From Stentor roeselii (lineage: Eukaryota; Ciliophora; Heterotrichea; Heterotrichida; Stentoridae), in the NCBI GenBank assembly GCA_006503475.1, contig RSEH01000086.1, forward strand, positions 99,025 through 163,024: a stretch of DNA of 64,000 nt. The letters run 5' to 3'. The notes under the pieces are model-generated. The model did no database searches. It was given only the letters and a program-made list of their open reading frames with translations, and was not told the origin of the DNA. The translations under genes were made by a program, and so were the position numbers. Numbering within the stretch: position 1 is the first letter of the stretch; each line of letters opens with the position of its first letter. Below, one piece after another: positions 1 through 47,375 of the stretch.

Positions 1-3000
1 AATTTGATGAGGGAAGAAGAAATTAGGACTTTTGCTATTAATCGATTTGCAAGGGATTTAAACGCTGAATGTAATTTTTATATGGAAAAAAATGACTCGG
101 CTTTTAAGGATTTTATGAAAAATCAGGAAAAAGTTAGAAGGATTCAGGAACAGTTCATGAGAAATGAAGAGATCTGGATGAGGGAACTCATTAAAAAAGA
201 GATTAAAAGAGAACAGACTGAAGAAAATTATTTGAAAAATGAGGAAAAAGTTACAAGGTTTTTTGTTCATAAAGCAAATAAAAAAATCCTTAAAGAATCT
301 GCAGCTTTCGCTAATGAAGACCGACTTTCTCTAAAATGGGAAAAAATCTACCAAAAAATCAGTCATGACTCTAAAGACTCTCTAGAATTCGAGGAAAATT
401 CAAAAAAATCCTTCGAAAAATCAGAAAAAAATCAAGAAAAATCCTTTGAAAACTATCTTCAAAAAAGTGAAAAAACTTTAAATTCCTTTTTAAAGTCACA
501 GATAAAAAATTCATCAAAAATTTCAAGAAATCTAAAAAAAATCGAAAAATCTCTAAAAAAATTCATATCTGGTGAAAAAAGAGTAGAAAAAAAATCAAGA
601 AAAAATTTAAGGATTCTTGAAGCGATTACTTTAAACTTCACCGAAGAACACGAGTTTCTTTTGCAAGTCGCTTTAAAATTCTTGAAAAAAGGAGAACATC
701 AAACTTTAAGCTTTTCTCGGAAATTGAAACATTTCTCTGATGACCAAGGAGAAATTTGCAAAAAGAATGAAAAATTAATGATCAGGTTTAATAAACAACA
801 AAGTAAAGTTGAAGTCAGAACTTCAAGAAGGTTAAAGGCTCTTGATACTTATTTTAAAGACTTTTTCAGTAGTTTGAATGGACTTTGCTTACAAGTCTTT
901 AAAGCTTTGCATGAAGAGGACAGGGCAAGTTTTCAGTTTCTTGAAGATGAAAATCGATTTGGCTTGTTGGGAATTGAAAAACTTTCTGGCGAAGATGAAC
1001 ATCAAATTAACTTTAAAATTGAAGAAAATAAAAAAATTGAATTGCAAATTGATTTTTTACAGAAAGAATTTGATTTAAACTTGAAGTTTTACAAAAGAGA
1101 AATTAAGATTGTTGGTAAATCTCAGAAAAATCTTGAAATTTCAGATGGAGAAAGAAAGGATTTTGAAGATGAAGAAAAGAAATTGGCTGAACTGGAAAAT
1201 AATCACTTAATGAAAAATGAAGAAGAATTAAAAGATTTTCTTGAATTTCAGGAAAATTTCAGGAAAAATAACCAAAATTCAATGAAAAAGGAGAAAAAAA
1301 AAATATTGCAACATGTTTTTTTAGTTAAAAGTCTTGCATCAGGAATAACGTCTTTTTTAATCGAAAATGAAAAAATTGTTAAAAAATTTAACTCTGGTGA
1401 AAATCATTTAATTTTTAATTCTTTTGAACAGTTAGAGTCTAATGAAAACTTTAGGAAAAAATTTGATTTTAGTGAAAGATGTCTTCTTGAGAGACAGAGA
1501 GAATCTATGGAAGAAGAAAAGATTTTCATTGAAAAAATTGTTCAACTAGTGGATGAAAATAATGGAGAAAGTTTAAAAACTCTTGAAAATGAAGAAAATT
1601 TAAGGAATTTTTTTGATCGCTTTCAAAATGATTTAATTTTTAGCACTTTATCTATCCTTGACCAAGAAGAAAAGCTTCTTAATTCTTATCAAGAAACTCT
1701 TCGAACATTAGAGAATCGAGAAATAAGAAGTCTTTTTAAAAGTGATGATGAAAGAAAATTTTATTTGAAAAAAGAGGAAAAAAATCAAAGAAACTCTAAT
1801 CATGCCTTAAAAAAAGAAGACATTTTTAGACTTGAGTTTTCAAAGATTGAGCTGAAATCACTAAATCAATTTGAAAAAAACCTCGAAAATGAAGAAAAAA
1901 TAAGAATTAAATTTGAGACCAATCAACAGCACCTCGTAAAAATATCTCAAAATCATCTTCATGAAAACGACCAAGACTTAAAGTCAATTTTATCACATCT
2001 AGAAAAAAACCTTCTAAACCTTCTCCAAAACTTAAACATCGAAGACTCTTTCACCATTTCCTTCACTTTGAACCAAGTCAATCTCGAGTCAATCAATCAA
2101 TCCAATCTTTCAACCCTCGAAGAAAAAGCCTCATCATTTTTAATCTCGCAACAAGAATCAGAAGTCTGCATCCAAGAATCTTTAATTTCAGAAGATCAAG
2201 AAACTTCCAATTTTTTCTCCTCAGAATCACGAAAAATGCGAAAAACGTTAAAAAATTTATCAAAAGAAGAAAAAAATTCTAAAAAAATCTTTAAAATCGA
2301 GTCAAATGGAGAAAAATTCAATTCAGCTTTTTTAGAATCTGAAGATGAAAGGGTTAAGAGACATGAAGAAAATATTCTAGAAGTTAGAAGTCGGGCTATT
2401 ATTGGACTTGATGACCAAGAGAAGGACTTTTGCCAGTTTTCAAATCTTGAAACAACTTTTAGCTTTATGAAAAATGAAGAGTTAGATAAAAGTGAGTCTT
2501 TTATGAAGAAATTTTGCTCTCAAGTTATGAGTATTTGCTCGACTGAAGCTTGTTCACTTGACTTTGAAGAACAGAGAAATAAAAAGTTTAATTTAGATGA
2601 AAATTCTTTGATTCACTTAAAAACTGAAAGACTTGAACATGAAGATTATCTTATCAGAGACTACAATAAAAAGATTAGTTCTAGACAAAGAAAATACTTG
2701 AAAAAAATAGAAGAAAATGAAAAAAATATGAAAAATTTCTTGAAAAATCAGGAAAAAAATAGAAAAAATGAATATCGAGGTTTGAGGATTAATGATTCAG
2801 ATACTTTAAAAAATTTGGAGGTTATATCAAGACTTGAAAATCAAATTTTTGAAAATTTGGAAGCTTCGGATTTAGAAATTTTTGATTTTAATTCAAAAAA
2901 ACATCTAATTGAATTAACTCAACAAGAAAATTTATCAATAAATGAAAGATTTTCTTGTGATTTTAACAAAATTCAGATGGGCCTTGAAGTACTTACTAAG

Positions 3001-6000
3001 GAAGAACTTTCAAAAAATGAGAAAAATGTTAAAAGTTTCTTAAAAATTCAAGAAAATTCTAGAAAAATCACTGAAAAAGAGATGAAAAATAATGAAAAGT
3101 TGATAAAAAATATTGTAAAATATGAGAAAACTTTAAAAAATCAAATTGTTTCAGCTTTAGAAATCGCGGATAATCTTTTATCCGACTTTTCTTGTAAAGA
3201 ATCATTTGTGATTAAAAATGAATCTGTTATCTTAGCTAAAGAAGAGGCCAGGTCTGTTAAATTCAACAATTCTGAAAGAAAATTGATTAAATCTTCAGTC
3301 AAATCTTTGGGTTTAGCTGATATTGAAGGATATGAAAATAACAGAATCTTGGATGAAATTAGAAATAGAGAAACTCGTGAATTAGAAAGAGAAGAAAATA
3401 TTTGTTTGGAATTTTGTGATAATCAAAAAATCAAAGAAGATTTAGATTTTAGGTTTTTAGCTGATGAAGAAAAATGTTCCAAAACTTTCCTGACCTCCCA
3501 AGAAGTACTAAAATCCTCATATTTAAACTTTTTATCAGAAGAGCACAGTCATCTCATAAACTACTTCAACTCACAGCGAGGACTTGTTAAATCATTCAAG
3601 GCCGACTTAGAAGTCGAAGAAAGAATTCAATTAACTTTTCTAAAAGCACAGAAAAAATCACAAAAAGAGTCAATTTCAAGTTTTTTCGATTTCGAGTTGA
3701 TTACCCAAAAATTCCTAAAAAAACAATTAAAATATTCTACAAGAGTCTTTTCTAAAATCACTCTAGAAGAAAATCTAACAATTCACATAAACCTTTTTGA
3801 GTTGAAATTAAGAGAATCTCATATTTTTTCACTAGAAAACAACGAAAATTTCATTGAAAATTTTAATAAAACCTCGAAAAAACTGCAAAAATCACTTGAA
3901 AAAATCATCAAAAAAGAAGAAAATCTTTTTGTAGAATTTTCTGAACTTCAGTTGATGAAAGTCAAACAAACCATCGAAAATTTATTAGAAAATGAACGAG
4001 AACTGAAAAATTTCAATGAAAATCAAGAGGTTTGTGAGAAGTGTTTAGTAAAATCTTTGAAAAAACAAGATGATTTTTCCTCAAACTTTATAAAAAAAGA
4101 GGAGAAAATAAGGAAAAAAGAAATAAGAAAATTTAGAAAAAATGATAAAGAAATTCAAACTTTCTTCAAAATTTCGAAAACAATAGAAAAAGACCACCTG
4201 TCTCAATTAGAAACCTCTGAAGACAACATAAAAAACCACATCATCTCCGAACTTTCCTCACAAAAATCATCTAGAACCTCATTAAAAACAGAAGAAAATT
4301 CATCAAACCTTCTAAAATCTTTCCAACAATCCTTCTCAAACTCACTAAAATCCTCCTTATCAACAAACGAGTCTCTAACCCTCCAAAAACAATCAATCGA
4401 GTTGAAATCATCTGCATCAACCTCATCAACCCTATCCTTAGAAGACTCCTATCTTAAAAATTTCAACAAAAACCAAAAAAATCTTTCAACCCTTCAATCC
4501 AAAAACTTAAAATCTGAAGAAAAACAACTTCACGTCTACCTTTCACAACAAACCCAAAAACAAAATTTTTCAATATTTTCTCTTGAATCTGAAGAAAAGT
4601 TCATAATTTACTTCAAAAAATTCGAAGAAAATTTCAAACAATCCAGTTTTGAAATCCTTGAAAAACAAGAAAAAAACTCAAAATTTTTTTTCAATAAACA
4701 ATTCGAGATCTTTAAAAAAAGTGGTCTTGAAATGGAATCTCAAGATAATTTCATGAAAAAATTCTTTTCTGAAGAAAATTTTTTTGCTTTAAATAACTTC
4801 AAGTCGTTAAAAGAAGATGAAAAGTATAACAACTTGATTCAGTCTTTTGAAAAAAAATTAAGTTTTAAGGAAAAGTCTTTGATGGATAAAGAGGAATCGT
4901 CGATTCAGACTTTTTCTCAGAAACAAGAAGAATTTTTTACAAAGTCCATGAATTTGATGGAAGCTGAAGAAAATTATGCAAGAAACTTTTTTTGTATTGA
5001 AAAAAATCTGGTGAATAAAGGATTTTGTTTGATGGAAGAAGAAGAATATTTTGTTCAGGTTTTTGTTGAAACTGAGGAAAGTGAAAATTTCTTGGAAATG
5101 GAAGGAATGGAAAAAGTTGATATTGAAAGGAAAAATTTTGCCTTGATGCAGAAAAATCTTTCAGAAAAAACTATTTCATGTCTTTTAAATGAAGAAAAAA
5201 ATATGAAGGAGTTTAATTTTCATGAAAAACAAGAGAAATTAAAGACCTTTGAAAAAATGGAAGAAGAAAATAATTTCACCTTTAATTTCAGCCTAAAAGT
5301 TTCAGAATTTCTAGAAAAAATCAGGAAAAATTTAGAAGATCATGAAAAAATCATGGAAAATGTTTCAGTTATTCAATCAAATCAAGAAAAAGATACTTTT
5401 TCTCATCTTCTCAGCCAAGAAAACCAAAGAAAACAACATGAAAAAAAAGAAAAGAAAAACGAAGGAAAATGCATTAAAAAGATGTTACTTGAAGAAAATT
5501 TCAATTCACAGTTTTTTGGAATTGAAACCATTGTCGGAAAATCAGAACTTGACGGAATGAGACAAGCTCATTTATATCGAAAAGCTTTTGTCGGCATTCA
5601 GGAGCAAGTCAGGATTGAAAGCTTGGCAAGTCTTGAAGAAAATGAAAGATTTTCTAAAGAATTCATTTCTAATGAACTTGAAACGGAAAATAAAGAATGT
5701 TTTTCACTTGATGATGAGGAAGAGTCTTTAAAACACTTCTTAAAAAAATCAGTTAAACTTGAAAAAAATTGCAGAAAAATATTGAATCATGAAGAAAAAA
5801 TCAATTTTTCTATAAAAAAGTTTGAAAAAGGATTTAATCATCAAGAAACTCAAAAAATGTTTTTATTGGAAGAAGAAAATCTCGCTTTTTTTAAGGAAGA
5901 ATTGAAAAATGAATCGAAAGTGCAGGTTTCTTTATTTGAGGAAGAAAAATTAACAAGACATTTTCAGATAATTCAAACTCAGTTTGTTGAAAAGAATGCT

Positions 6001-9000
6001 GAAGACTTGTTTAGGGCTGATGATGACTCTTTGGAATTTTTAAAAAAAGAAATTCTTTTGCAGGATGATGTTTGTAAAGCGCTTTCATTGGATGAAAATG
6101 AGACTGGAAAGATTTTGAAAAAAGAGGAAAAGATTTCGCATGGTTTGAGGAAAAAAGTTATGGATTTGGAAAAGTCTCAGAAATTATTTGATAAGTTGAT
6201 AAGAAAAGCAGAAAGACAGACCAAGCGAATGATGGCCAAAGAAGACTCTGATAAAATTGAAAAATGTAAAATTCAAGAAACTCTCGAAATATCATCATCT
6301 ACTCAGTTATTACTTGAAGAACTATCTGGACGAGAAATTCAAGAAAATAGTCTAAATCTAGAAAATTATACATTTCAAGACTTAGAAAAAAATGATTTTC
6401 ATTCAGTAACTGTTTATTCACAAGAAATTAAATTAAATCTTCTTATTACTCAAAAAATGGCCTTAGAAGAAGAATTCATCAGAAACTTTTACAAAGAGGA
6501 AGCTCAAATCGAATTCAGAGATGGAAATTTACTTGAAAATGCTGAACTAAGAATGATATCATTTGAAAAAGAACAAAAGTACTTTAGAGATATTTGGTTT
6601 GAGAGAATGATTAAAGATGAGATTCAATTCTCTGAATTCATTGAGGTTGAGGAGTCAGAACATCAAAATGAAATCATTAAACTTGAGCAAGAGTTTAAAT
6701 TGATGAAAAGTTTTGAAGAGATTGAAAGATCTTTAAGACAAAATAATTATAAATTTCTGAGAGCAGAAGAAAAACTAATGAAATCATTTGAAAGCATGCA
6801 AAAAAAATTGGTTAGTCAAGAAGTATCTCGAATGAATACTGATGAATCGACAATGATAAACTTCTCATCATCAGTAAGCTCCCTGATTCTCCATGAATTA
6901 AACTCCTTAGTCAAATCAGATGAAAGCACAAGAAAAATCAATAACGATCTAAAACTTTCTCTAGAAAAATCTCTTTTCCTTCTAGAAAATGAAGAAACCT
7001 CAGTAAAAACTTATACAAAAATAATCAACTCAATTGAAAAGAAAACAAGAAAAATGATGTCAAATCTAGATGGTCTTCAATCAAACCTACATCTAAATCA
7101 GCTCTCAAAAGAAGAAAAAAATTTCAATTTCTTCGAAGCAGAAGACAATTTTTCTATTTCACATAAAGAAACTTCCTTAAACCTCGAACTTTCTGCTTTA
7201 AGATCTCTTGAATCACTAGATGAAGAGCAGACTTCTTTCAATCTTTTTCAATTAAAACTAACCCAAATAAATCTCAAAAATTTGCAAAAAGAAGAAAAAA
7301 ACACCAGAAAAAATATCAAGTCGCAAGAAAAGTCAAATAAAAACTCTCGTCATTTTATGAGAAAAGAAGAAAAAATCATGAAAATATTTGAAAAAAATGA
7401 AAAAGAACTTATTTTTGCAAACTTTGAAAAACTTGGAGAAGAAGATATTTTTATTAATGAATTTGAAAAAACTGAACAACAAGGAAATAATTATGAAAAA
7501 AATCGACTTGATTTAGAGTTTGAAGAGATTTCATCATTCCTCAAGCATCAAAATTCTTTGATTCAAGAAAGCATGGAAAAACTTAGCAAAGAAGATGATT
7601 TAATGAAAAGATTTATCGAAATTCAACTTTCAATAAACGAGGAGTCTTTGAAAGACATGGCTTTTAATGATTTTCATGCAAATTCATTCTTTTCTGAATT
7701 AATTTTGAATACTGAGAGAAATTCTGAACTTCTTTTTGTGGAAGATCAAAAAAGTAGTGAATTTTGGGTAATGGTTGAAAAGAGGTCACAACAAGTTAGA
7801 CATAAAATTTCGAAGGAAGAAAAAATTCGGGTAACTTTTGATAAATCTGAGAGAAAAGTCAATCGATTGAATAAGAGAAATTTACAAACTGAAGATTTAA
7901 GTGTTTTAGAAGATCTTAAAATCAAAGACGAACTATTAAAACAATCAGAAAATTTACTAGAAAAAGAAGAAATTCTTACAATTTTCATTGAAAAAGAACT
8001 AATAAAACTTCAAGACCAATCATTGAAAAATCTGGAATTTCATGATAAACAATCTCAAAATTTCCTTCTTTTCCAATCATCTTCAAGAGAATCAACAAAA
8101 AAATCTCTAAGAACTGAAGAAAAATTACTGAAAGATTATGAAAATGCTGAAGAAAAATTAATATCAAGAAATGATCATTTTCTTCAAAAAGACGAAAATT
8201 ATTTAACTTCTTTCAACAAAAAACATTTATTGCTTGTCACTCATCTTTGTCAGAAAATGATTGAAAGTGAAGAATTTACTAAAAGATTCAGTGTTTGTGA
8301 AAAGTCAGAACAAGTCATTCAGAGAAAAAACATGGAAAATGAAATGAATGAAGTGATGCAATTTGATAGATTTGAAAAACAATTAAATGAATTATCATTG
8401 AAAAAATTGATTCAAGAAAATGAGAAGATGGAAAATTTTTATGAAGTTGAACAAAAGATAAGATTGCTTAGTTCAGGTGAAATGGCAAACCAAGAATCAT
8501 CCTCATCATCCTTTATAATCCGAGAAAATTCACATAGAAGTTCAATCATAACTTCCTTAAAATCAGCAGAAGACCTTCTATCAAAATTCTTAAAGATCAA
8601 TGAGAAAAAGGCAAATTCTCAAATAAATAAACTATCAAAAGAGGATAAACTTCGCAGGGCATATGATAAAAATGAGAGGAAAATTTCAAGAGAAAACAAA
8701 AGACTTTTAGCTGTACAAGACAAAGAATTAATGGAAACAATAACAAAACATGGAGATCTCACACTCTTATTTACTAATATGATGGAAAAAGAAGAAAATG
8801 ATTTAAACCTTTTCAAAAAACTTTCTGAGGAAAGACAACTTTTGTCTTATCAAGAAATTGAATCAAATGATTATCAAGGCAAAGATTTTGATTCTTTTCA
8901 GAATAATTTCATTATTTCTTTAAATAATCAAATGAAACTCCAAGATCAGTTCATTCAACAACTTTTGAAAACTCAAAAAATCATCACTTTTCAAATTTCT

Positions 9001-21000: not shown

Positions 21001-24000
21001 TTGGCTTTCGAAGATCAGCTTGGAATGAATTTTCAAAAAACTCAAGAAAAAATCATTCTTTTTACTTCAGAAATACTTGAAAATAACGAAATTTTTATCA
21101 AAAATTTCTGCGAAAATGAAAATCGAATTGAAAAACAATCATTCTTCGAATTGGAAAATGAAAGGAAAAAAACAGAAGAATTAGAAAAAAATTGGAAAAT
21201 TATTTGTTTTGAAGTTTCTGAAAAAATGGAAAAATTGGAAAAAATTGATGAAAAGTTTGAAGAGACTTTAGAAAAATTTGAAGAAAAGGTTAAAGAACAG
21301 ATGCAAGACTGTGAAAACTATTCTTTAGATTATAAATTAATTGAAATTTCAAAGACTACAGAAGAATTTGAATTACTCGAAAAAGAATCAGAAAAAATGA
21401 TAAAATTTTTAGAGAAAGAAAAAAAGGAAATGGAAAAAGAAGTATCAGGATTAATATCAGAAGAAAATTTCTCTGTTTCAATTATTATCATCGAGCAGAA
21501 TCTCATTCAAGGATCGATTAATTCAATGCTCCTCGAAGAACAATCAAAAAACCACTTTTCAATCACCCAAGAAAATTTCATTCATAAAACCAGGACAATT
21601 CTTTCCACTCAAGAAAAACTTCGAAAGTCCTTCGAAAAATCAGAGAGAAAATCAATTCGGTCAAAAAAACGATTTCTTGTCGCAGAAGATTCAGAAAACC
21701 TGAAACATCAAAAAAATCTTCAATTAATTCAAAGCATCTCATCAAAATCTCTAAATAAAGAACAAAAAATAATGAAAAATTTCACAAAATCATTGGAAAT
21801 TCTTAGAATAAGCTCAATGAAAGATTTAGAATTAAATGATCTGCAGATTGAAAATTTCAAATTATTAGAAAATCAGATTATTACTCATTCAATCGAAAAT
21901 TTAGAAGAAGAAGAAGAAAAAATGAGAAATTTCTTGATTAATGAAAATGAAAATGTGGGAAAAAATAAAGGTTTACTTGATCATTATGAAGTTATTTCAA
22001 GAAAATTCATTGAAAATGAAGAGAAATTGAAAGAGGGATTTGTTAGTTGTTTGGGGGGGAATGAATGTTTTGTAAAAGTTTTTGAGAATATTGAAAACTC
22101 TAGAGTTAGTCGTGAACTTGAAAAAATCGAAGAGCAAATCAAAGAAATGAACTTTTTCCTAGAAGAGGAGAAAAATCTCATCAAAAGAAACCTGAATTTT
22201 ATTAACAATGAGGAGAAATATTCTCAAATTTTAAATAAATTTGAAAGCAACTCATGCATATCAATCCGATCATTTTTAGAAAAACAAGAAGATCTCGTTC
22301 ATGCAGTCAACAATAAAAACGCATCACTTTTACTTGAAATAAAATCAAATCTAGAAACAGAAGAAAATCAACAAAAACTCTTCACTCAAAAAGAATTAAA
22401 ACTTATAACCTCCATCACTAAAAATTTATCAAAACAAGAAAAAAACCTTCATTCCATCTTAAAAACAGAAAGAAAAAAATCAAGACACTGTAAAAGACTT
22501 CTGATTTCAGAGGACTCAAGCCTTTCATCCTACGAAAACACTTTAAAATCAATTGAATTATCTTTAACATCAATTCTAGAAGAAGAAGAAAATCTTCAAA
22601 GATCATTTATCGACTACTGTAAAACTTCTGAACTTTCTCATATAAGCAGGCTAGAAGAAAACTCTTTAAACCTCGCTTCTTTCATATCCTCTGAAGACTT
22701 TATCATTAAATCCTCAGTCAGAGGTCTGGAATTCCAGGAATTATTTATAAGAGAGTTCATTAAAGAACAAAAGATTCACGCCGATCATGAAACTTCGGAA
22801 ATAGTCTTCGAGGAAAAATTTGAGAAAGAATTGGAAAAAAGTGTTAAAAGATTACATCAAAGTGCAAGAATGGACCTTGAATATCAGGAAAAATCGATGA
22901 TCAAGTTTTATGAAGAAGAAAGGGGTAGAGCTTTAAAGGAGTTTGATGTACTTGAGAGGGAAAATTATGGAACTTTGGAGTTTGAGTCGATTGTTGGACA
23001 GTATGAAGGAAGAGAAAGTGAGAGGATGAATAGTGAAGAAGCCTTCCAACAATCATTCAAATCATTTGAAGAAATTTCCACCACCAACGAGTTCAAATCT
23101 CTAGAATCAGAAGACTTAAAAACCTCCAATTTCCACCTAAATCACCTAAAAACCTCATCAAAAACCCTCGAAAAACTCGAAAAACAAGAACTTTCCACTC
23201 AAGCCTTTCTAGAAACCGAAAAATCGCTGATCCAATCATCATTAAGCCAAGCCCATATCGAAGACTGCCAAATCCAAACCTTCTACAAATCCGAGTCAAT
23301 CGAAATAAAATCATCCTGCAACTTCCTCTTATCAGAAGAATCTTTAACGACCTCTTCATCCAAATCTTTTTTTCAATCACAGAAAACTGCATCAAAAAGT
23401 TTATTCAAAGAAGAAGAATTCACAAAAATCTTCAAAATTCACGAAGCCGAATTTGAAGAAAGCCAAAAAAAGGACTTAGAAGATTCTGAAAATATTTGCA
23501 AAACTTTTCTAGACCAAGAAGTTCAGATGTGTAGAAACTTTGAGGATTATTTAAACTTGCAAGAAAATATCATCAAAAAGTTTTATGTTGATCAGGGCTT
23601 GACTTGTGAAAATCAAATGGTTTTCTTGGAAAGTAATGAAAATTTTGATAGGGAGTTTAAAGTGGCTGAAGGAAGGAATTGTAAGGATAGTTATAAGATG
23701 TTAATGAAGGAGGAACAGAATTTGATACAGTTTTATTATGGAGAGGTGGATGGAGGGAAGGAAGAAGAGTTTTTGATGGAACAGGAACTGAATGAAAGAG
23801 ATGAGTTTTTGAAATTTCAAGAAAGGTTTAGGGGGAATAATATGAGATTATTGTCAAATGAAGATAAATACTTACAAGACCATCTCATCAACTTCTCATC
23901 TTTACAATCTTCTATATTGGAAAATTTAACTCTTGAAGACAAGAAAGCCTCTGAATTAAAATTGAATTCATCAAAAATAGAGCATCAATCCAGAAAAATT

Positions 24001-27000
24001 CTAAGAACCGAGGAAAGATCAACAGTAAAACAAGCAAAAAACGAGTTCAGAGAGCAAAGATCAGAAACAAAACATCTAATAAAAGAAGATAAATCTACAT
24101 CTCGATTCGAAAGAGCCTCAAGAAAACTTACTTCATCATCTTTAATCAAGATGAATGAGTTTGAAACTTCTCAGCATTTATCAGGAGACTCTTTAAATGA
24201 CCTTGAAAATAATTCAAGATTTTCTTTAAATCTAGAAGATCAAAACATTGAGAATTTTTGGAACTATGCAAAAGGAATGGAAAATAAAACAGTCTTTGAA
24301 ATGGAGAATGAAGAGAAAATAATGAATAATTATATTGATCTTGAGATGAATGTGAACCTTAATGAAGGTGAGTTAATGTATTTAGAAGAAATTGGAATCA
24401 AGAGGTTTTTGAGAAATGCTTTTAGCATATGCTCGACTGAAGAGTTTTCTTTAGAGTCTCAGGATAAGTTTAGTAGATTTATCAATGATGAGGAAAGTAG
24501 CCAGATGTTGAATGAACTGGACTTAATGAGCATTGATGACATTTTCAGAGAAAAATATCTTAACAAACAAACAAAAAAATGCAATAAATCTATCCAAGAC
24601 TTAGAAAAAGAAGAAAAAAATAGAGGAATCCTCCAGAGGGAAGAAAATCTCATCAAATTAAATAACCTTAAATCACTGGAACTCGAGGAAAACATAACAA
24701 GAACTTTACTTGCAGATGAGAGAATTCTTCAAGAAAAATGCCTAAAAGACTTCGAACAAGAGTCAAACCTTCAAAGCATCCATTCCTCATCCGAGTTTTC
24801 CCTTCGCCAAACTTCATTTTCATCTCTCCAATCCGAAGACGACTATTTCCATTCCCATTTAAAAACCCAGCTAAAACAAGAAAACAACAACAAAAAATCT
24901 CTTCTAATCGAAGATCAAACACTAAAATGTTTCCTAATCGACGAAAAGAAAAACGCGAGCAAGTCTCAGATCTCAATGAAAACAATCGAAAAACTAAAAA
25001 ATTCTTCTAATTCCAACGAAAACAAACTAAAAGAAAAAACATTCAAAAACCTCGAAATCGAATTTTCCCTTCAAAAAATCCAAGAAAAATCAGAAAAATC
25101 TCTAAACTCAAAAACCTCAAAAATCATCGAAAAATCTGAATTTGACTTAAAAAAATTTTTATCTCAAGAGCACTCACTTCAATCAAAAAACATAAAAACT
25201 CTTGAATTCGAAGACTTGATATCAAAAAACAGAGTCAATCTTCAACTTGAACTCACAGATATCGTCACCCACGACCTTGAAAAAGAAGAACTTCTTCTAA
25301 AAAAACTAGCAAAAGACGAAATCTCTTCACAAATAATCGCAATTGAAAAACTTGAAGATGAGGAAAAAAATTCCAGAAAATATTTGAAGGACCAAGGATA
25401 CAAGGAGAAGTTCGAAAGATATATCATGGAAAAGGAAATGAAAAAAACTATGAAGTGCTTCAGAATCCAATCTGGAGTTCTCGAATCACAATTGCAAAAA
25501 ATAGCAGAGCAAGAAAAATTAACAAAGTCATTCCTCGCTGCTCAAAAAGCTCAAATATCCGACGACTTGACAATTTTAGAAACAGAAGACGAGTTAAACC
25601 TTTTATTCACGAAAAAACAATTAAAGGTGCACAAGGTGCACCTAAAGAAATTCAAGAAAATTTCTTTAAACTTAAAAGTTTTCTTATCATCTGAAAAATC
25701 TTTAAGAAAAGCTGTTAGGGTTGAATTGGAAAGACAGGAAAATTTAACAAAAAGCTTTTTACAGTTAGAAAAAGAAGCAAGTGCCTTAGAAATCCATCTT
25801 CTTGAAGCGGAACTTCAAGAACTTGAAGACTTGCAAGGGACTCTACTAGAGATTCAGAACTACGAACTTGCAAGAATGACGAAAGAAGAAAGAACAGGAA
25901 AACTTCTTCTAAGAACAGATAAAAATATTTCAGAATCAATGAAAAAGAAGCTGAAATTCGAAGAAGATTACTTAAAATCTTTCCTTTCTCAATTAAAATC
26001 TCAAGAAAATTCAATTATCAAGTCACTGACAAGACTAGATAAAGATCTGACGATATTCAAAAAGAACCAAAAAAATAACCAAAATAATTTTTCTTCTTTT
26101 CTCAACAAAGAAGAAACTTTCCTTAAAAAATTCTTAAAATTCCAAGAAGACCAAACCGAGACTCAAATAAAAAACATGACAGAACAAGAAAAAATCAGCA
26201 AAAAATACCAAAACTTCCTGAAACAACTTGAAGAAGACCAAAAACGTAAGAAAGAAGAAGAAGAAAAATACTTTTCTTCTCTTCGTAAAGTTGAACTCCA
26301 GAAAATCGCTGCTCGACAAAGGCTAACACGTGAAAAAACCATGAGACTTGAAAGACTTAACAGCATTCGACAAGCAGAACTTGAAAAAAAGGCAGAAGAA
26401 GAAGATTTAAATGAGTCTCTTGTTCAAGACTCTCCATTGGAAGTCAATGAAACTGAAGATGTCCTTGCAGCGGAATCGAAAATCATTGAAAGTCTTGTTT
26501 TGATCTGTGGAAGCTTCTTTTGTAGTCAATGTTATCGAATGTTAAAAAGAAGTTCTTTGTTTTTGAAATGTGATAAATGTTGTGCCTCGGCTTTTAATAA
26601 ACAATTACCGCCTTCTAGCTCGGGAAATCAAAGACCGAAAATACCTCCTGGGTCGGTTTGTGTTGGATGTGAAGCTATTATTAAAAGAGGGGAAATTGTT
26701 CAGTGTATTTGTTGTTATATTCGACAAGAGTTCTTGAAGGACTTCTCACCGATTACTTGTGGAGGGTGTAATCATAATGAAAGTGTCTCTTGGGTTGATA
26801 CTTATGTTGGGTCTAGGTATGAGATGATCAATTGTGGGTTTTGTCAGAGAAGTGTTAATTATTTGTATGTTGTTGAAATTTGTACTAGTTGTCATGATCA
26901 GGTCTGTCTTCATTGCTTAAGAAAAAACAACTTTTTAGCAATATCCGTGTGCAACGAATGCCACAGTCGACGACAAGTAAACCCATACAAGAGACTACAA

Positions 27001-27018
27001 CGTAAACCAACATTCTAA
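1..27018 (+). CDS. Giant 25-residue-repeat alpha-helical protein with C-terminal zinc-binding domain (5' partial)
   Basis: One frame is open from base 1 to the TAA at 27016-27018, at least 9,005 codons; the true start lies left of the window. Almost all of it is units of exactly 25 residues. The consensus is Leu/Met at position 1, Glu/Asp at 4-5, Phe or another hydrophobic at 11, Glu/Gln at 15, and often Leu at 18 and 22. Spacing of this kind fits a long continuous helix or coiled coil (25 = 7+7+11). The protein is very rich in Lys, Glu, Asn and Ser and poor in Pro, Gly and Trp. From about residue 8,835 the repeats give way to a domain with many CxxC pairs. No signal peptide or membrane segment is seen. 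Inference: a filament or scaffold of about 1 MDa, perhaps related to ciliate giant centrin/spasmin-binding proteins, though the Trp of classical Sfi1 repeats is missing. Function is unproven. Confidence 0.9.
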   Translation, partial: NLMREEEIRTFAINRFARDLNAECNFYMEKNDSAFKDFMKNQEKVRRIQEQFMRNEEIWMRELIKKEIKREQTEENYLKNEEKVTRFFVHKANKKILKESAAFANEDRLSLKWEKIYQKISHDSKDSLEFEENSKKSFEKSEKNQEKSFENYLQKSEKTLNSFLKSQIKNSSKISRNLKKIEKSLKKFISGEKRVEKKSRKNLRILEAITLNFTEEHEFLLQVALKFLKKGEHQTLSFSRKLKHFSDDQGEICKKNEKLMIRFNKQQSKVEVRTSRRLKALDTYFKDFFSSLNGLCLQVFKALHEEDRASFQFLEDENRFGLLGIEKLSGEDEHQINFKIEENKKIELQIDFLQKEFDLNLKFYKREIKIVGKSQKNLEISDGERKDFEDEEKKLAELENNHLMKNEEELKDFLEFQENFRKNNQNSMKKEKKKILQHVFLVKSLASGITSFLIENEKIVKKFNSGENHLIFNSFEQLESNENFRKKFDFSERCLLERQRESMEEEKIFIEKIVQLVDENNGESLKTLENEENLRNFFDRFQNDLIFSTLSILDQEEKLLNSYQETLRTLENREIRSLFKSDDERKFYLKKEEKNQRNSNHALKKEDIFRLEFSKIELKSLNQFEKNLENEEKIRIKFETNQQHLVKISQNHLHENDQDLKSILSHLEKNLLNLLQNLNIEDSFTISFTLNQVNLESINQSNLSTLEEKASSFLISQQESEVCIQESLISEDQETSNFFSSESRKMRKTLKNLSKEEKNSKKIFKIESNGEKFNSAFLESEDERVKRHEENILEVRSRAIIGLDDQEKDFCQFSNLETTFSFMKNEELDKSESFMKKFCSQVMSICSTEACSLDFEEQRNKKFNLDENSLIHLKTERLEHEDYLIRDYNKKISSRQRKYLKKIEENEKNMKNFLKNQEKNRKNEYRGLRINDSDTLKNLEVISRLENQIFENLEASDLEIFDFNSKKHLIELTQQENLSINERFSCDFNKIQMGLEVLTKEELSKNEKNVKSFLKIQENSRKITEKEMKNNEKLIKNIVKYEKTLKNQIVSALEIADNLLSDFSCKESFVIKNESVILAKEEARSVKFNNSERKLIKSSVKSLGLADIEGYENNRILDEIRNRETRELEREENICLEFCDNQKIKEDLDFRFLADEEKCSKTFLTSQEVLKSSYLNFLSEEHSHLINYFNSQRGLVKSFKADLEVEERIQLTFLKAQKKSQKESISSFFDFELITQKFLKKQLKYSTRVFSKITLEENLTIHINLFELKLRESHIFSLENNENFIENFNKTSKKLQKSLEKIIKKEENLFVEFSELQLMKVKQTIENLLENERELKNFNENQEVCEKCLVKSLKKQDDFSSNFIKKEEKIRKKEIRKFRKNDKEIQTFFKISKTIEKDHLSQLETSEDNIKNHIISELSSQKSSRTSLKTEENSSNLLKSFQQSFSNSLKSSLSTNESLTLQKQSIELKSSASTSSTLSLEDSYLKNFNKNQKNLSTLQSKNLKSEEKQLHVYLSQQTQKQNFSIFSLESEEKFIIYFKKFEENFKQSSFEILEKQEKNSKFFFNKQFEIFKKSGLEMESQDNFMKKFFSEENFFALNNFKSLKEDEKYNNLIQSFEKKLSFKEKSLMDKEESSIQTFSQKQEEFFTKSMNLMEAEENYARNFFCIEKNLVNKGFCLMEEEEYFVQVFVETEESENFLEMEGMEKVDIERKNFALMQKNLSEKTISCLLNEEKNMKEFNFHEKQEKLKTFEKMEEENNFTFNFSLKVSEFLEKIRKNLEDHEKIMENVSVIQSNQEKDTFSHLLSQENQRKQHEKKEKKNEGKCIKKMLLEENFNSQFFGIETIVGKSELDGMRQAHLYRKAFVGIQEQVRIESLASLEENERFSKEFISNELETENKECFSLDDEEESLKHFLKKSVKLEKNCRKILNHEEKINFSIKKFEKGFNHQETQKMFLLEEENLAFFKEELKNESKVQVSLFEEEKLTRHFQIIQTQFVEKNAEDLFRADDDSLEFLKKEILLQDDVCKALSLDENETGKILKKEEKISHGLRKKVMDLEKSQKLFDKLIRKAERQTKRMMAKEDSDKIEKCKIQETLEISSSTQLLLEELSGREIQENSLNLENYTFQDLEKNDFHSVTVYSQEIKLNLLITQKMALEEEFIRNFYKEEAQIEFRDGNLLENAELRMISFEKEQKYFRDIWFERMIKDEIQFSEFIEVEESEHQNEIIKLEQEFKLMKSFEEIERSLRQNNYKFLRAEEKLMKSFESMQKKLVSQEVSRMNTDESTMINFSSSVSSLILHELNSLVKSDESTRKINNDLKLSLEKSLFLLENEETSVKTYTKIINSIEKKTRKMMSNLDGLQSNLHLNQLSKEEKNFNFFEAEDNFSISHKETSLNLELSALRSLESLDEEQTSFNLFQLKLTQINLKNLQKEEKNTRKNIKSQEKSNKNSRHFMRKEEKIMKIFEKNEKELIFANFEKLGEEDIFINEFEKTEQQGNNYEKNRLDLEFEEISSFLKHQNSLIQESMEKLSKEDDLMKRFIEIQLSINEESLKDMAFNDFHANSFFSELILNTERNSELLFVEDQKSSEFWVMVEKRSQQVRHKISKEEKIRVTFDKSERKVNRLNKRNLQTEDLSVLEDLKIKDELLKQSENLLEKEEILTIFIEKELIKLQDQSLKNLEFHDKQSQNFLLFQSSSRESTKKSLRTEEKLLKDYENAEEKLISRNDHFLQKDENYLTSFNKKHLLLVTHLCQKMIESEEFTKRFSVCEKSEQVIQRKNMENEMNEVMQFDRFEKQLNELSLKKLIQENEKMENFYEVEQKIRLLSSGEMANQESSSSSFIIRENSHRSSIITSLKSAEDLLSKFLKINEKKANSQINKLSKEDKLRRAYDKNERKISRENKRLLAVQDKELMETITKHGDLTLLFTNMMEKEENDLNLFKKLSEERQLLSYQEIESNDYQGKDFDSFQNNFIISLNNQMKLQDQFIQQLLKTQKIITFQISDTLNQEEKQINHFLNKEQLIIKQQKENLNENEEDRKIFEEFEVSMKQTSSELLEKEMSLMIDFIEKEKEISEKSFMFLEQEKREMKDYKLCENNRMDDNSLKMAEEELVLSSFIENESELMKKNQRYLENEDQVCLVISKSLNKVYHSISHKLSKEEKNRKKFDKVDRKLGRDSKRHIANEDLKTFERFSEEKGLQLSLQNNLCLEENLMKFFNESLNTFELKTSEKLETCNLEVFELNELIKKVEKVNVEEMNMDEDSRINFIKNEDEIGIIFSDMLEKEDENTNRFVSQQLFQSLEITKTLDFHEQNLKTFINLEIFKNQVEKEFMKSELKLTKNYLQLEKSLIEKSTLSLNHEEDDFQIFIDSLYQKNQELTSKMAEEDSLTRVFFNFERSSIEGNISSIESEDNFLKKFSKSHEKKSNSQINKLSKEDKSRKAFEKYERKIARENKRKLSALDLELLETVKFLQDLTFISSSMMEQEENFSNLFKKLSEERQLLNYQEIESNDYQGKDFDSFQNDFIISLNNQMKLQDQFIQQLLKTQKIITFQISDTLNQEEKQISYFLNKEQLIIKQQKENLNENEEDRKIFEEFEISMKQSSSELLEKEMSSMIDFIEKEKEISEKSFMFLEQEKREMKDYKLCENNRMYDNSLKMAEEELVLSSFIENESDLMKKIQASLESEDKNFSTISKKLNKSTHSISRKLSKEDKVRKSFEKSERKHGRDVKKTLDKEELNTSEIKNKEESLELLCENSLSFIESWMKKHDEKLKELELKTYENLELSNSEVFIINNLRINLEKENRKAIRFEEGENRDFIKCEKQIGMIIEDNLEIEEQKIFKFISDLQSKSLEICHTLQTIENYNQSIIKFEDSSIKAQRKSIKHELESQKNFLSLEKSLIEASHQKLQVEENFLVSFLIMNDQMIQDSFLIMAGEEKFVLKFLESESLSRQEHISSLESEEKILCKISKSHEKKSNSQIYKLSKEDKYRKIFEKNERKSSRENKRKLGSQDLELIESITVLERLTSNYFNLLENEENLSKLFKKLSDERQHDLFQEIESNDFQGKIFHSFQNDLIVDGNKRLSNQDEFIKKYSKTEEILKVDNFRNLLEEEKYNRDIVYQEGKMIKQVEERLNEDEKFGKILEECQFSINHSNSAFLEKEMNFMMNHLQLEKELSKNTILLLNQEQDQIITLNIQLNSKNHENLKTITEEDQLSSIFIENESKLIEIIKISLDNEAQWCSNIDKSLKEVNIFTSHKLSKEEKTRKFYEKSEKKIRKNLKQQIEIEDSKIVEKMRKEDNFEVSCQNHLFLEDASMKKNDGKLKKFELKNHEKLEICDLENFETINFSSEAQNRNIKELGFEEDLNKGFFKNELEINIFACNLLEKEERNIVKFLSGMTLESLEICQKMEKIDTELKNYLYSETFQNNSQNDLLRKEYQLTKKFIKIEDFFAKNLQNSFQIEESFQKTFIENTEKNKANLLFKMAEEESSSFRYTEQEQLENQKTISSLESEDKLTSKVSKTHDKKVNTQTRKLSKQDKIRKLFEKSERKQTRDSKRLLSIEDLDLINILQIQEDLQVSCANFLEVEEKITVSFDEERFDRERFEIEQVKDHDFNSNNFYLEEKELANEMAKKLEIEEFEIRSFIRKENEIGLKSRELLETGDFLMKKFELDEKKIRKEAVLKLDQGETFIGNFECEEDSVNSFQNTNLENELKISLNFLTNEKKLREKTIKFLTVEERKTRSFLKSLHDSQEAIFVQMSILEAELMTYLEQENLIVEQTYYSLKSEENDYLSFERQSKSLSSSISSSLNQENKLKKSFDLIQKSLSESIQKNLETQKFHSLEFYSSQSDLELKSINEMKIQDNLTNDYQLAGLSSEHQNFNSLEQNEAKNSNFSLFENQLKDSIQKNMDLEESLIKNFDEFEKKSGVKNFDFLDNEEKNAKVFIKKNEKLRKKLRSHLKNDEKSVKGLEKNLNSGIFKDLESLESEMELSKSYQKQENILIELNIEKMNEEEKIMKKFEKDEKSFVEDIRKSMDLEEVLNKDVFEKEVGFMRGMRDIIMMEDNLIQMLSKSLENGLLVLGKGLETEEQSRYLFESKENDIKNSSLKSLENNDFSTSKTFSIQESIQASHKKILEKQDSLSSLHENFSKSLQHKTLKNLEFNENKTQEINLIQQEKINQNIEKMIIEEKNVSKVKNFERRFESLCFEFLDDEEKMMKDQKKTENFSRFSVFDEMEKEDFRGKNIENGQKNEKKKENIFLEEEDEKMENFHELEKMVREKNLRYLEEEEKIMEKFLEIEKSCIKEDFFNIKLEDNLMNSFIQVEHKENIEVSSSLLLEDNLIQNLSNLIENVLKTLSNQLLNEEKLTDLFNNLEKNSEKHSQQDLATEDSKLSEIIKNLSKIQKNHLKFLENEEKTSTSNHDFQETLQSSTCEFLTKNDKNSSNLLISIFQITKSTINHLENEENSNKKLLNSQKSNENQVISNLLLQEKYSKDFKIFENFSIQQVLRKMSENEEVKNNFDLIEKGLKEDSLNFLKFEFRLREKFVDEEEITSKGVLKSLESEDVRIRILEYEIQRKISENLENLIDEESKLVEVLTFEDISTRKNRRSLRHEEKSWKKASKSHEKELASHSKHLSKQEKQTKTFEKLEKKSRKSNLKSLSSEDSHLSETKNLSFKLESTCAETLEIQENSSKSFIFKSLTFEQFSSNQLKINEKLSKSFFSNESFQVSLMIKKMTEEEAQAILFSSEENVFRGKISQVIISEEAKTKLFNEREILMNETENLTLLEEESKNQDFYKKESKLTKSLKKIFEEKEEENLEFLKKERKENEKFFNELIQEDLKRKEILNEESFFIDKISKKLIEEESFVNDFYLIESKICESLLKHLEGEETELKKINKKENFQQELVFDKIIQNEVQLQEFKMKEKINLELHLAKMIENEGETREFLQNELVIAECFNCQMNLLEEENKEILMKEEKNYFNVFSQMVGNEAETCEFLESESKLLKSISRKMKESEMENKKFIKNFSIETESLFNKMLEEESHTIEILQNELTFNDFLLKQMKDLENEMKDYVKSENILNCDVYKFMCENEFESKHFFKNESFLQEKNIRKMWEEEAGQQDLLSNKEIEDSCIVSKMEKEESLTKELIKEEENLNVFLIKNIHNEDSKTKKFMKNESKLAESLAKKLDEENKENNEFVQTEHLQCQMLFSSLFNEEASQRDFLRLETEMNESLKCQMLENEDQLKEILDCEVTIRESLLDLLNQQETETKDLIIENLKFNQNTSNQMDEEEILTKVFLENESHSLTAHLNKLSEVETQIKELLHCEASSKTSLVNKMIEEENEERKLETERLLSMKILFEKMNLEEVSTKQFLFNESSISETLGSQMVQNDSLNKKFLENKSFLEESQLEKMMKNDENIKNFLNIQSSLIQKVKNQMTEVETQTKEFQDLKSSLHKKLLKKLNQEKKETKEFLIKELEINEKISKTFKEIEFDLKDFLKKESFLNENLLKNMNQEESSTKYFIEKEGIFVESLINKMFEEEVETKKFLKNLALLENSSGRKMFEEEVNVRELNVNKVLSSESLFEEMNREEELMKDFLRDENFLKENLFLKLGQEELENKDFLENNSIEQSFHCKKMLGEETEINEYVDRESIINKDLCCKMIEEETKTENHLKNQLLLNQKLFSKLIKAETKTQNHLKHEKSIKKHLLSKFNKEELETKELLDDQIKINSFSLFNLQENEAETNEFLKNQSLSQDFLLTTLNQSEVEKIEFLQSELKLNNSVFLEMKELEAETKKLSTSESLSKDLIFNKMIEEEKEIQEFLRLESNFNKSQMALMSEADEYTIGINDALKSVNYFESFNFEKENLRDCEFYLKECERMQLTLHSLDLEESLMKDFLHNQTNSNPSKSLSSEETFSRLFLDYQRETIEKSLQDLIQSETQSSTHSNLTKNIIKSSTDHLSNEEKLRKSFEKTERKLKRSAKRKMASQDLKLLETLNFQEKIQNHLEKFLAFEDQLGMNFQKTQEKIILFTSEILENNEIFIKNFCENENRIEKQSFFELENERKKTEELEKNWKIICFEVSEKMEKLEKIDEKFEETLEKFEEKVKEQMQDCENYSLDYKLIEISKTTEEFELLEKESEKMIKFLEKEKKEMEKEVSGLISEENFSVSIIIIEQNLIQGSINSMLLEEQSKNHFSITQENFIHKTRTILSTQEKLRKSFEKSERKSIRSKKRFLVAEDSENLKHQKNLQLIQSISSKSLNKEQKIMKNFTKSLEILRISSMKDLELNDLQIENFKLLENQIITHSIENLEEEEEKMRNFLINENENVGKNKGLLDHYEVISRKFIENEEKLKEGFVSCLGGNECFVKVFENIENSRVSRELEKIEEQIKEMNFFLEEEKNLIKRNLNFINNEEKYSQILNKFESNSCISIRSFLEKQEDLVHAVNNKNASLLLEIKSNLETEENQQKLFTQKELKLITSITKNLSKQEKNLHSILKTERKKSRHCKRLLISEDSSLSSYENTLKSIELSLTSILEEEENLQRSFIDYCKTSELSHISRLEENSLNLASFISSEDFIIKSSVRGLEFQELFIREFIKEQKIHADHETSEIVFEEKFEKELEKSVKRLHQSARMDLEYQEKSMIKFYEEERGRALKEFDVLERENYGTLEFESIVGQYEGRESERMNSEEAFQQSFKSFEEISTTNEFKSLESEDLKTSNFHLNHLKTSSKTLEKLEKQELSTQAFLETEKSLIQSSLSQAHIEDCQIQTFYKSESIEIKSSCNFLLSEESLTTSSSKSFFQSQKTASKSLFKEEEFTKIFKIHEAEFEESQKKDLEDSENICKTFLDQEVQMCRNFEDYLNLQENIIKKFYVDQGLTCENQMVFLESNENFDREFKVAEGRNCKDSYKMLMKEEQNLIQFYYGEVDGGKEEEFLMEQELNERDEFLKFQERFRGNNMRLLSNEDKYLQDHLINFSSLQSSILENLTLEDKKASELKLNSSKIEHQSRKILRTEERSTVKQAKNEFREQRSETKHLIKEDKSTSRFERASRKLTSSSLIKMNEFETSQHLSGDSLNDLENNSRFSLNLEDQNIENFWNYAKGMENKTVFEMENEEKIMNNYIDLEMNVNLNEGELMYLEEIGIKRFLRNAFSICSTEEFSLESQDKFSRFINDEESSQMLNELDLMSIDDIFREKYLNKQTKKCNKSIQDLEKEEKNRGILQREENLIKLNNLKSLELEENITRTLLADERILQEKCLKDFEQESNLQSIHSSSEFSLRQTSFSSLQSEDDYFHSHLKTQLKQENNNKKSLLIEDQTLKCFLIDEKKNASKSQISMKTIEKLKNSSNSNENKLKEKTFKNLEIEFSLQKIQEKSEKSLNSKTSKIIEKSEFDLKKFLSQEHSLQSKNIKTLEFEDLISKNRVNLQLELTDIVTHDLEKEELLLKKLAKDEISSQIIAIEKLEDEEKNSRKYLKDQGYKEKFERYIMEKEMKKTMKCFRIQSGVLESQLQKIAEQEKLTKSFLAAQKAQISDDLTILETEDELNLLFTKKQLKVHKVHLKKFKKISLNLKVFLSSEKSLRKAVRVELERQENLTKSFLQLEKEASALEIHLLEAELQELEDLQGTLLEIQNYELARMTKEERTGKLLLRTDKNISESMKKKLKFEEDYLKSFLSQLKSQENSIIKSLTRLDKDLTIFKKNQKNNQNNFSSFLNKEETFLKKFLKFQEDQTETQIKNMTEQEKISKKYQNFLKQLEEDQKRKKEEEEKYFSSLRKVELQKIAARQRLTREKTMRLERLNSIRQAELEKKAEEEDLNESLVQDSPLEVNETEDVLAAESKIIESLVLICGSFFCSQCYRMLKRSSLFLKCDKCCASAFNKQLPPSSSGNQRPKIPPGSVCVGCEAIIKRGEIVQCICCYIRQEFLKDFSPITCGGCNHNESVSWVDTYVGSRYEMINCGFCQRSVNYLYVVEICTSCHDQVCLHCLRKNNFLAISVCNECHSRRQVNPYKRLQRKPTF
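8821..9360 (+). repeat. Near-identical tract, copy A (partner 10471-11010)
   Basis: These 540 nt match 10471-11010 almost base for base; several whole 60-nt lines are identical or differ at one site. The offset is 1,650 bp, twice the 825-bp super-repeat. Neighbouring copies are much more diverged, so this pair reflects recent duplication or gene conversion. A third, diverged relative begins near 12121. Confidence 0.9.
10471..11010 (+). repeat. Near-identical tract, copy B (partner 8821-9360)
   Basis: Partner of the tract at 8821-9360, 1,650 bp downstream and in the same reading frame. Differences are scattered single substitutions with no indels. Confidence 0.9.
17190..20500 (+). repeat. Methionine-led 25-residue repeat subclass of the giant gene
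   Basis: Here position 1 of the 25-residue unit is usually Met and is followed by an acidic triplet (M-x-E-E-E). The second half commonly reads F-L-K-N-E-S with Leu at 18 and 22. The subclass is distinct from the Leu-led, basic units at 6-14 kb, so the rod has at least two chemically different segments. A net loss of about 2 codons in the 75-nt phase falls between 16882 and 20851. Confidence 0.7.
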
Positions 27019-29602: not shown

Positions 29603-29674
29603 TATTTTTTATGTCAAGAAATTTGATAAAATTTTAAAGAAATTCAATATTTAAGAAAATCTTAAAATCTTACA

Positions 29675-29714
29675 CCCTAACACCTTAACACCCTAACACC
29701 CTAACACCCTAGCA
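29675..29714 (+). repeat. Interstitial telomeric repeat, five CCCTAACA-type units
   Basis: Five consecutive 8-nt units read CCCTAACA, CCTTAACA, CCCTAACA, CCCTAACA, CCCTAGCA. Three are perfect and two have one substitution. CCCTAACA is the telomere unit of Stentor and Blepharisma. The tract sits in the 170-nt gap between two divergent genes, so it is internal, not a chromosome end. It may be a relic of telomere addition or chromosome fusion, or may act as a promoter element. Confidence 0.9.
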
Positions 29715-46262: not shown

Positions 46263-47375
46263 TTAAAACAAATCCTTAAGAAACTCCACCTGTATTCTAA
46301 GAATCCTCCATTCAATCTCCTCACCATTCAAAAAAGCAGTATAATCATCCTTTCCAGCATCTCCAGCGCCTTCCCTGACAACTCCATCCATTTGCACTCC
46401 ATAAAACTTGAACTTACAATTAAAGAACCCACATCCTCCAACTCCAGTGAGTTGTTCCTTGCACATAGGGCAAGCAGCTCTATTTCGATCAGTTTGCACA
46501 TTAAAGACTCCAAACCCGTGATTGGAGATGACTTCTCTGATGAAAGCAGGACATTCTGGATTCACACATTCGCCAAGCCAAGACATTCCAGGACTGACAC
46601 ATCTCCAGTCAGGGGCAGTTTTGGAGAATTCCATTTTGACAGCAGTTTCCATTGAATTGAAAGAAAAAGAAGGCGGCATCCCTCCGCCCCTGAGCCTGAG
46701 GACTAGATGAAGGACTGACTCATGAATGATTTCATAAGTGCCGAGATCTTTTTCGTCTTCCAGTTGTTTTCCAGCAAAGATCAGTCGCTGCTGATCGACT
46801 GGAATGCCTTCTAATTCAGCGATATGCTTCTTCAACTTGAGAACTGTATCACTTGGATCAACAAAACAAATGACTTCTTTTCCAGTTAGAGTTTTTACTG
46901 TAATGTGGAAGGACTCGATGACTGGGTATAAGGCTTCTTTGATCAGGTCTATTTCGCTGTCATTGGGAATCTCTGCCATTGAAGAGTCGAGTTGCAAGGT
47001 CTGCTCGTTGAACTTGAAAACGTACTCGTTTATTGGGTAAGATAAGGAATTTCGCCTGCAGGACGAGACAAAAGTTCTGCAGAGGTCTTGCACTTTCTTG
47101 GTGTTGCTTGAGGGAAGGTAAACTTTCAATCTGGCTTCAGGGGTTTTTATGAAGTAACGAGATGTGCTGTCACTTCTTGATGTCACTTGGAAGTACTTGT
47201 CGTTTGAATTCATGATAGAGGGGAGGTTAGTCACTCGCCCATTTCTGTAATATATCTGATCTGGAATGTATATTCCTGATAGACGCTCGATTTCGTCCAC
47301 GAACTGATCGTTGCTTTGGAAGGTCAACTCGTGGGCTCCTCCCTTTAAGGTCAGAAAAGAATAGGATACTTCCAT
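46263..47375 (-). CDS. Ubiquitin-domain protein with divergent N-terminal and Cys-containing C-terminal regions
   Basis: 370 residues. Residues 156-231 are a complete ubiquitin fold ending LRLRGG, followed directly by Gly-Met-Pro-Pro. Core ubiquitin features are kept: [21 protein letters not shown] and HLVLRLRGG. Lys6, Lys11, Lys27 and Lys48 equivalents are present, while positions 29, 33 and 63 are His, Leu and His. The N-terminal 155 residues look like one or two further beta-grasp-like regions without clear identity. The C-terminal part has a W-R-C-V-S-P-G segment and paired cysteines (CVNPEC, CPMCKEQ), suggesting zinc binding. It could act as a ubiquitin-binding or ubiquitin-like adaptor; whether it is cleaved after Gly-Gly is unknown. 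Confidence 0.8.

Follow-up and report, generated by a model that had tools for sequence, protein, structure and literature searches.

A 9,224-residue protein of a heterotrich ciliate with about 350 copies of a 25-residue unit kept in register, probably a giant alpha-helical rod

What does a heterotrich ciliate encode in a reading frame that stays open for 27 kb, and what could such a protein be for? The window, that is, the whole 64,000-nt stretch of Stentor roeselii DNA analysed here (C512:99025-163024, from an assembly of 44.4 Mb in 522 contigs), begins inside this gene. The original prediction of a single uninterrupted frame of 9,005 codons at 1-27018 was exact; the frame lies on the plus strand, crosses the left edge of the window and ends with TAA. 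The predicted giant size also stood. The beginning of the frame and an N-terminal domain lie outside the window and could not be seen in it. The ATG is located at C512:98368, 656 nt to the left of the window, with an in-frame stop upstream at C512:98362. This start is supported by the paralogues, which begin at the same Met (Met1 of the giant aligned with theirs in an alignment of nine N-termini). The complete gene has 9,224 codons with no intron seen, and encodes a protein of 1,096.6 kDa (1.097 MDa) with a pI of 5.3.

1..27018, plus strand: giant gene within the window, residues 220-9224 and the TAA stop (open frame, upstream stop, homologous N-termini).
C512:98368-98967, plus strand: N-terminal domain of the giant, residues 1 to about 200, outside the window; residues 1-219 lie to the left of the window.

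The chance of 9,224 stop-free codons, calculated from the base composition of the strand, is about 10^-378; in the same region, open stretches of the other five frames reach at most 153 codons. G+C content of the gene is 28.4% (24.4% at third positions), compared with 33-44% in six neighbouring genes. The standard code fits, since the neighbouring genes stop with TAA or TAG, the giant gene contains 12 TGG and no TGA, and the long neighbouring frames are also without in-frame TGA.

At 29672-29711, inside the contig and between two genes, an 8-base telomere-like unit (a permutation of CCCTAACA) is repeated five times. The minus-strand neighbour at 52044-61639, whose last long frame has REJ and GPS domains, contains 15-nt introns such as GTAATTTTTATTTAG at five of eight frame boundaries when read by eye. 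Such a telomere repeat and 15-nt introns are heterotrich hallmarks and support a heterotrich source. A leishmanolysin-type protein (Peptidase_M8) is encoded at 35691-42317, and its end, compared by eye, appears to resemble the gene at 52044-61639. A 370-aa protein encoded at 46263-47375 (minus strand) is an unusual ubiquitin fusion, with the ubiquitin domain (Pfam, 1.4e-25) at its centre, residues 158-229. A protein kinase with C-terminal EF hands, resembling calcium-dependent protein kinases, is encoded at 61665-63134 (minus strand), and the many EF-hand frames of about 460-530 aa in the genome may belong to the same family. Several EF-hand frames of 176 aa have equal scores on different contigs; one locus (L004), judged by eye, looks like tandem centrin-type genes. 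Ras-family matches in the genome number at least 150. A second A+T-rich stretch of the window extends over about 48000-62000.

The predicted 25-residue unit was borne out by the full sequence. Identity at lags of 25, 50, 75 and 100 residues was 0.181, 0.179, 0.178 and 0.179, against an expected 0.088. A strict count gave 339 full units, and the register model spanned residues 220-8976, about 350 units.

1..26271, plus strand: rod, residues 220-8976, about 350 units of 25 residues with one net slip of 2 residues (lag identity, register model, period 3.571).

Within the unit, position 21 is hydrophobic in 99% of copies (mostly L or M), position 6 in 89% (mostly F) and position 13 in 63% (L/I). 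Position 0 is E/D in 88% and position 24 is acidic in 62%, and E or Q is commonest at position 10. Acids sit within the hydrophobic seam of the conserved face, and the seam has a net charge of -1.19 per unit; the mean unit charge is -0.93 in the first rod segment. The strongest hydrophobic period of the rod is 3.571 residues, which equals 25/7, or seven helical turns per unit. Basic residues peak at the same period, and the unit moments point to 98 degrees for basic and 280 degrees for hydrophobic residues. The 8,757 rod residues include 1 Pro, 112 Gly and 10 Trp. The rod has two features of a continuous helix, a helical hydrophobic period and a near-absence of helix breakers. As had been proposed, the 25-residue pattern is typical of alpha-helix, and its periodicity suggests that the rod is probably one long alpha-helix.

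As counted from Met1, the phase of the register model was constant over residues 220-7117, and after one slip it was constant again. This slip, 2 residues at 7117/7118, is the only net one in the rod. Five phase excursions of 10 to 19 residues occur before it, each returning, and one more short excursion follows it. Pro7116, the sole proline of the rod, stands at the same site; this coincidence suggests that a hinge joins helices of about 1.03 and 0.28 µm (at 0.15 nm per residue). Introns of 15 nt hidden in the rod are unlikely because an insertion of 5 residues would shift the register, and the sole net slip is 2 residues.

20689..20694, plus strand: putative hinge, Pro7116 and the register slip at 7117/7118.

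The giant belongs to a family. Its C-terminal domain matched nine places in the genome, itself included (C512, C407, C85, C379, C38, C213, C206, C339 and C40). With the 1,402-aa protein on C407 it shares 44% identity in the N-terminal and 68% in the C-terminal domain. For the other paralogues the C-terminal domain matched at E 5.8e-12 or better, and the N-terminal domain was weak: searched against the genome, the giant's N-terminal domain found C407 (E 2.3e-47), C40 (E 0.0038) and little else. The nine N-termini align lengthwise, with an identity of only 15-20% outside C407. Among proteins outside the genome, three of 160 candidates (P0001-P0003) matched the end of C407, and 11 of 113 (P0004-P0014) matched that of C206. 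P0004, 99% identical to the end of C206, is probably from the same species, via a JGI metagenome. No relative of giant length was found with the giant's end among 972 candidates, a collection that may miss large eukaryotic genes.

The rod was found in some members. The unit consensus found 24 places at E up to 0.001, 22 in C512 and two in C407 (150 of the 176 candidates were scored; others are possible). Register-model scores were 344.9 for C407, 264.6 for P0001, 179.5 for P0002 and 186.6 for P0003, compared with at most 11.5 for shuffled sequences (20 each). The same model scored 0 on C38, C213 and P0007. The C213 protein (L027) has a lag identity of 0.304 at 25, but 0.284 at 10 and 0.26 at 15, a shorter-period repeat unlike the 25-residue unit. 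In a tree of 22 rows the five rod-bearing proteins grouped together (100/99), without a resolved order among them.

Two landmarks allowed the rods to be measured. A [DN]FMDxEA-like motif is present at residue 175 in all five rod-bearing proteins (the giant, C407 and P0001-P0003), and the rod ends at a conserved motif, QKIA. The giant has two QKIA matches, at 8717 and 8985; the one at 8985 was chosen, 70 residues before the Cys domain, compared with 66-74 in the others.

26272..26466, plus strand: rod end and linker, with the conserved motif QKIA at residue 8985.

The distance from the residue-175 motif to QKIA is 987 residues in both C407 and P0001, 612 in both P0002 and P0003, and 8,810 in the giant. 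The differences are 987 - 612 = 15 x 25 and 8,810 - 987 = 313 x 25 - 2, where 2 is the slip at Pro7116. The linker between QKIA and the Cys domain (66-74 residues) is not quantised. All five rods, the giant's included, show short phase excursions of at most 32 residues, and every one came back to the same phase. The rods of this family thus differ by whole units, from 22 to 38 in the relatives to about 350 in the giant, and net length change within units is almost absent. C407 and P0001 have equal rod length and phase, with an ungapped identity of 22.7% over residues 201-1160. In the middle of these two rods (331-1050) an exchange of whole units is possible, because the identity at offset 0 barely exceeds that at offset -50 (17.9% vs 16.7%).

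Lag analysis of the giant revealed a second level of order. An 11-unit (275-residue) super-repeat gave peaks at 11, 22, 33, 44, 55, 66 and 77 units, and unit permutations placed it in parts of the rod.

1..5997, plus strand: zone A, residues 220-2218, units without super-repeat (360 of 500 permutations reached the observed value).
5998..16872, plus strand: zone B, residues 2219-5843, 11-unit super-repeat of 275 residues (0 of 500 permutations; lag peaks).
10273..10347, plus strand: basic signature unit, an example, residues 3644-3668, one per super-repeat in zone B.
16873..20688, plus strand: zone C, residues 5844-7115, more uniform units, no super-repeat (296 of 500 permutations).
20695..26271, plus strand: zone D, residues 7118-8976, second rod segment, weak 11-unit super-repeat (2 of 500 permutations, 9 of 500 after filtering).

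One unit of each zone B super-repeat is basic, with a mean charge of +3.15, compared with -2.85 to -0.08 for the ten others; this signature unit has the pattern K[LI]SK[EQ][ED]K in 8 of the 13 zone B blocks listed. Block pairs occur at lag 550, one 100-codon pair being 95% identical, and the super-repeat of zone B is partly a mark of this recent duplication. When pairs of at least 36% identity were left out, its observed value was still reached by 0 of 500 unit permutations. The super-repeat was also considered as a supercoil pitch. The 25/7 stripe turns once in 190 residues if the helix has 3.64 residues per turn and once in 450 if it has 3.60, and 275 fits this range without discriminating.

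dN/dS was 0.19 to 0.58 in six of six internal 100-codon pairs above 45% identity (the pairs are non-independent and carry no significance test). Values below 1 suggest selection on the giant protein. An assembly artefact or pseudogene is unlikely, given 9,224 codons without a stop, no N in a 104-kb stretch and these ratios.

As expected from the original prediction, the rod is capped by a cysteine domain: the final 183 residues contain nine CxxC pairs and 21 Cys in all. In an alignment of this domain 19 Cys columns were invariant in 14 relatives, and the domain probably binds four or five zinc ions. The family profile of its last part aligned with the MID1 B-box over 44 positions (E 0.0023), with no Pfam match; the giant's domain alone found no match in PDB. 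It differs from B-box and treble-zinc modules in being about 160 aa long with nine CxxC pairs.

26467..27015, plus strand: C-terminal Cys domain, residues 9042-9224, nine CxxC pairs, probably zinc-binding.

The N-terminal domain had no match among Pfam and PDB profiles, the best PDB rows being short ZorA pieces (E 0.077 and 0.21). Its family alignment (10 of the 14 P proteins and nine sequences of the genome itself) was compared by hhalign with 12 otubains of the same genome (12 of 21 genome matches, one copy per locus). The score was 31.1, with P 0.00088, a probability of 23% and 161 colinear columns. Among the controls, the best of 100 permuted alignments scored 20.0 and the best of 100 block-shuffled ones 20.5, reversed alignments scored 16.4 and 16.6, and Ras (11 of 12 loci) 12.7. 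The signal was weaker in subsets: P was 0.34 for the four rows of the giant subfamily, 0.041 for the 13 other rows, 0.011 for one otubain alone and 0.017 for the otubain set without that one. The column of the catalytic Cys of otubains holds Asn in the giant, and Cys in two of 19 aligned rows. A PF10275 search of the genome listed none of the nine family places. We tentatively put the odds at about even that this domain is a degenerate otubain. The otubain family (PF10275) is itself represented by an unusually large set here, 21 places in 44 Mb, some in tandem. By sequence comparison, the N-terminal domain of about 200 aa and the multi-CxxC C-terminal domain define a family outside Pfam.

The repeat found no known relative in the databases searched. 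Pfam gave no match at E up to 1 with the giant (all of the window's part and the N-terminal domain), and neither the unit profile nor a 3,000-residue piece of the rod found a relative in PDB. NCBIfam, searched with the last 2,006 residues, returned a sub-threshold match to a zinc protein (E 0.12). A repeat shared with known non-fibrous families, which the original prediction had named as a result that would tell against it, did not appear in Pfam or PDB. The family was not found described in the open-licence papers searched.

The reading that best joins these observations, with a probability of about 0.6, is an alpha-helical rod locked in register and bearing a docking domain at each end. It would serve as a cytoskeletal scaffold, possibly as a ruler. 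The giant would be an intracellular rod protein. A unit of 25 residues corresponds to seven alpha-helical turns, so each unit would keep the same face in line along the rod, with L/M at 21, F at 6 and L/I at 13, together with E at 24, E/D at 0 and E/Q at 10. The helix, nearly uninterrupted and hinged at Pro7116, would be about 1.3 µm long. If the aligned face packs laterally on a second rod or on a regular partner, out-of-step indels would be costly, which would explain the quantised lengths. Changes of a few residues would be harmful and the loss or gain of 25 tolerated, and a continuous helix packed along its length would meet both. The conserved seam acids would call for basic partners, and one candidate is the lysine-rich back of the rod itself. 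Because this back faces away from the acidic-hydrophobic seam, the seam of one rod could lie on the back of the next, building up a fibre or ribbon. Rod ends may be docked or cross-linked by the end domains. Most likely the protein serves the cortical or fibrillar cytoskeleton of heterotrichs as a structural scaffold or spacer.

Several points stand against this reading. Seam acids are unfavourable for plain self-association. There are also the phase excursions, Ser and Asn contents of 9.9% and 8.3% that are high for a stable helix, the lack of a giant relative among the 972 candidates, and a super-repeat confined to part of the rod.

The rod might go further and act, like titin and nebulin, as a molecular ruler. 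Fibre length would then be set by how many units the rod holds, and the 275-residue super-repeat would fit a periodic partner of about 41 nm. We regard this as tentative and on balance unlikely. The quantised rod lengths and the 11-unit super-repeat with its one basic signature unit speak for it. Zones A and C are without super-repeat and part of the pattern comes from the recent duplications at lag 550; the 41 nm presumes a single straight helix at 0.15 nm per residue, and the partner is hypothetical. What makes the idea plausible is the analogy with the super-repeats of titin and nebulin, and the super-repeat covers the rod only in part. A ciliate alpha-helical rod built in 3.7-nm steps of 25 residues, partly in 41-nm super-repeats matched to a partner lattice and with its unit number fixing the size of a cortical fibre, would be a third independently evolved giant ruler, a proposition that we hold to be doubtful. 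Were it true, the family would have evolved in length by whole steps, from 22 to about 350 units.

The original prediction had raised a centrin- or spasmin-binding scaffold beside a new class of protein; as a calcium-contractile scaffold, each unit would bind centrin or spasmin, and calcium would fold the array. The heterotrich source favours it, as do the many EF-hand frames of the genome (at least 150 matches, several of 176 aa), and giant proteins of Spirostomum myonemes are reportedly a proposed spasmin-binding scaffold. EF-hand proteins usually bind basic, hydrophobic helices. The Sfi1 motif, in the form A-x7-LL-x3-[FL]-x2-W-[KR], is of the Trp-bearing kind. In the giant this motif and its core LL-x3-[FL]-x2-W both occur 0 times, there is no Pfam Sfi1 match, and Trp is confined to the 10 residues noted above, in line with the predicted absence of the classical Sfi1-type Trp. 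Genome searches for Sfi1-type genes were empty without a working positive control and are uninformative. The acidic seam and the missing Sfi1 motif make an EF-hand array less likely, and the negative charge of the units in the first rod segment tells against it as well. A repeat without known relative was upheld, within Pfam, PDB and, for the last 2,006 aa, NCBIfam; the centrin or spasmin scaffold was weakened, and we consider it improbable. Giant repeat scaffolds with centrin or spasmin are known from protist myonemes (PMC12661445).

That the 25-residue units form helical hairpins or a solenoid, not a continuous helix, is quite improbable. The Ser and Asn content and the five core positions of the unit, which are hydrophobic only in part, would suit such a fold. 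However, Pro and Gly are so rare in the rods that no regular turn residue is present (no Pro in the four other rods, 1 in the giant, Gly 112 of 8,757), the top hydrophobic period is 25/7, and no solenoid family matched. A runaway repeat expansion of a normal family member of 1,000-1,400 aa, with little function in the extra length, could account for the lag-550 block pairs and for relatives that have 22 to 38 units and no giant among them, but it is very improbable given the unbroken 9,224 codons, dN/dS below 1 in all six pairs and a single net slip in about 350 units.

If a register-locked helical rod is the right reading, rods of 22, about 38 and about 350 units form a natural series in which the control of cell-scale fibres by rod length could be tested. 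Long helices could be designed from the repeat, and the cytoskeleton of giant ciliates, which is poorly known, would gain a new protein family. We know of no other long rod with such strict exclusion of out-of-step length change. The best-known giant rods with hierarchical repeats are those of muscle, and a free-living cell seems to have made one from an unrelated 25-residue unit. Giant helical scaffolds with hierarchical repeats are known already. As far as the searches reach, the novelty lies in the unit, in the near-perfect register that about 350 copies keep, and in the end domains.

Sfi1 and the giant spasmin-binding proteins of ciliates resemble the giant in being giant ciliate repeat proteins with helical repeats (in part PMC12661445); the giant differs from Sfi1 in the missing Trp-bearing motif and in its acidic seam. 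One trait of titin and nebulin is present in the giant, super-repeats of short units, in zone B, weakly in zone D and nowhere else. The C-zone of titin, a giant scaffold, likewise has super-repeats of 11 units, about 44 nm long (PMC7427331). There each unit is an Ig or Fn3 domain about 4 nm long, whereas no such domain occurs in the giant. Nebulin, like the giant, has unique ends and short helical-type repeats by the hundred, grouped in super-repeats of about 40 nm (seven repeats, 38.5 nm, in nebulin) with one signature motif each (PMC7109182). The units of nebulin are 35-40 residues long and carry SDXXYK and WLKGIGW, whereas in the giant SDxxYK and WLKG each occur 0 times, Pfam gave no nebulin match, and the unit is 25 residues, seven turns of a putative helix.
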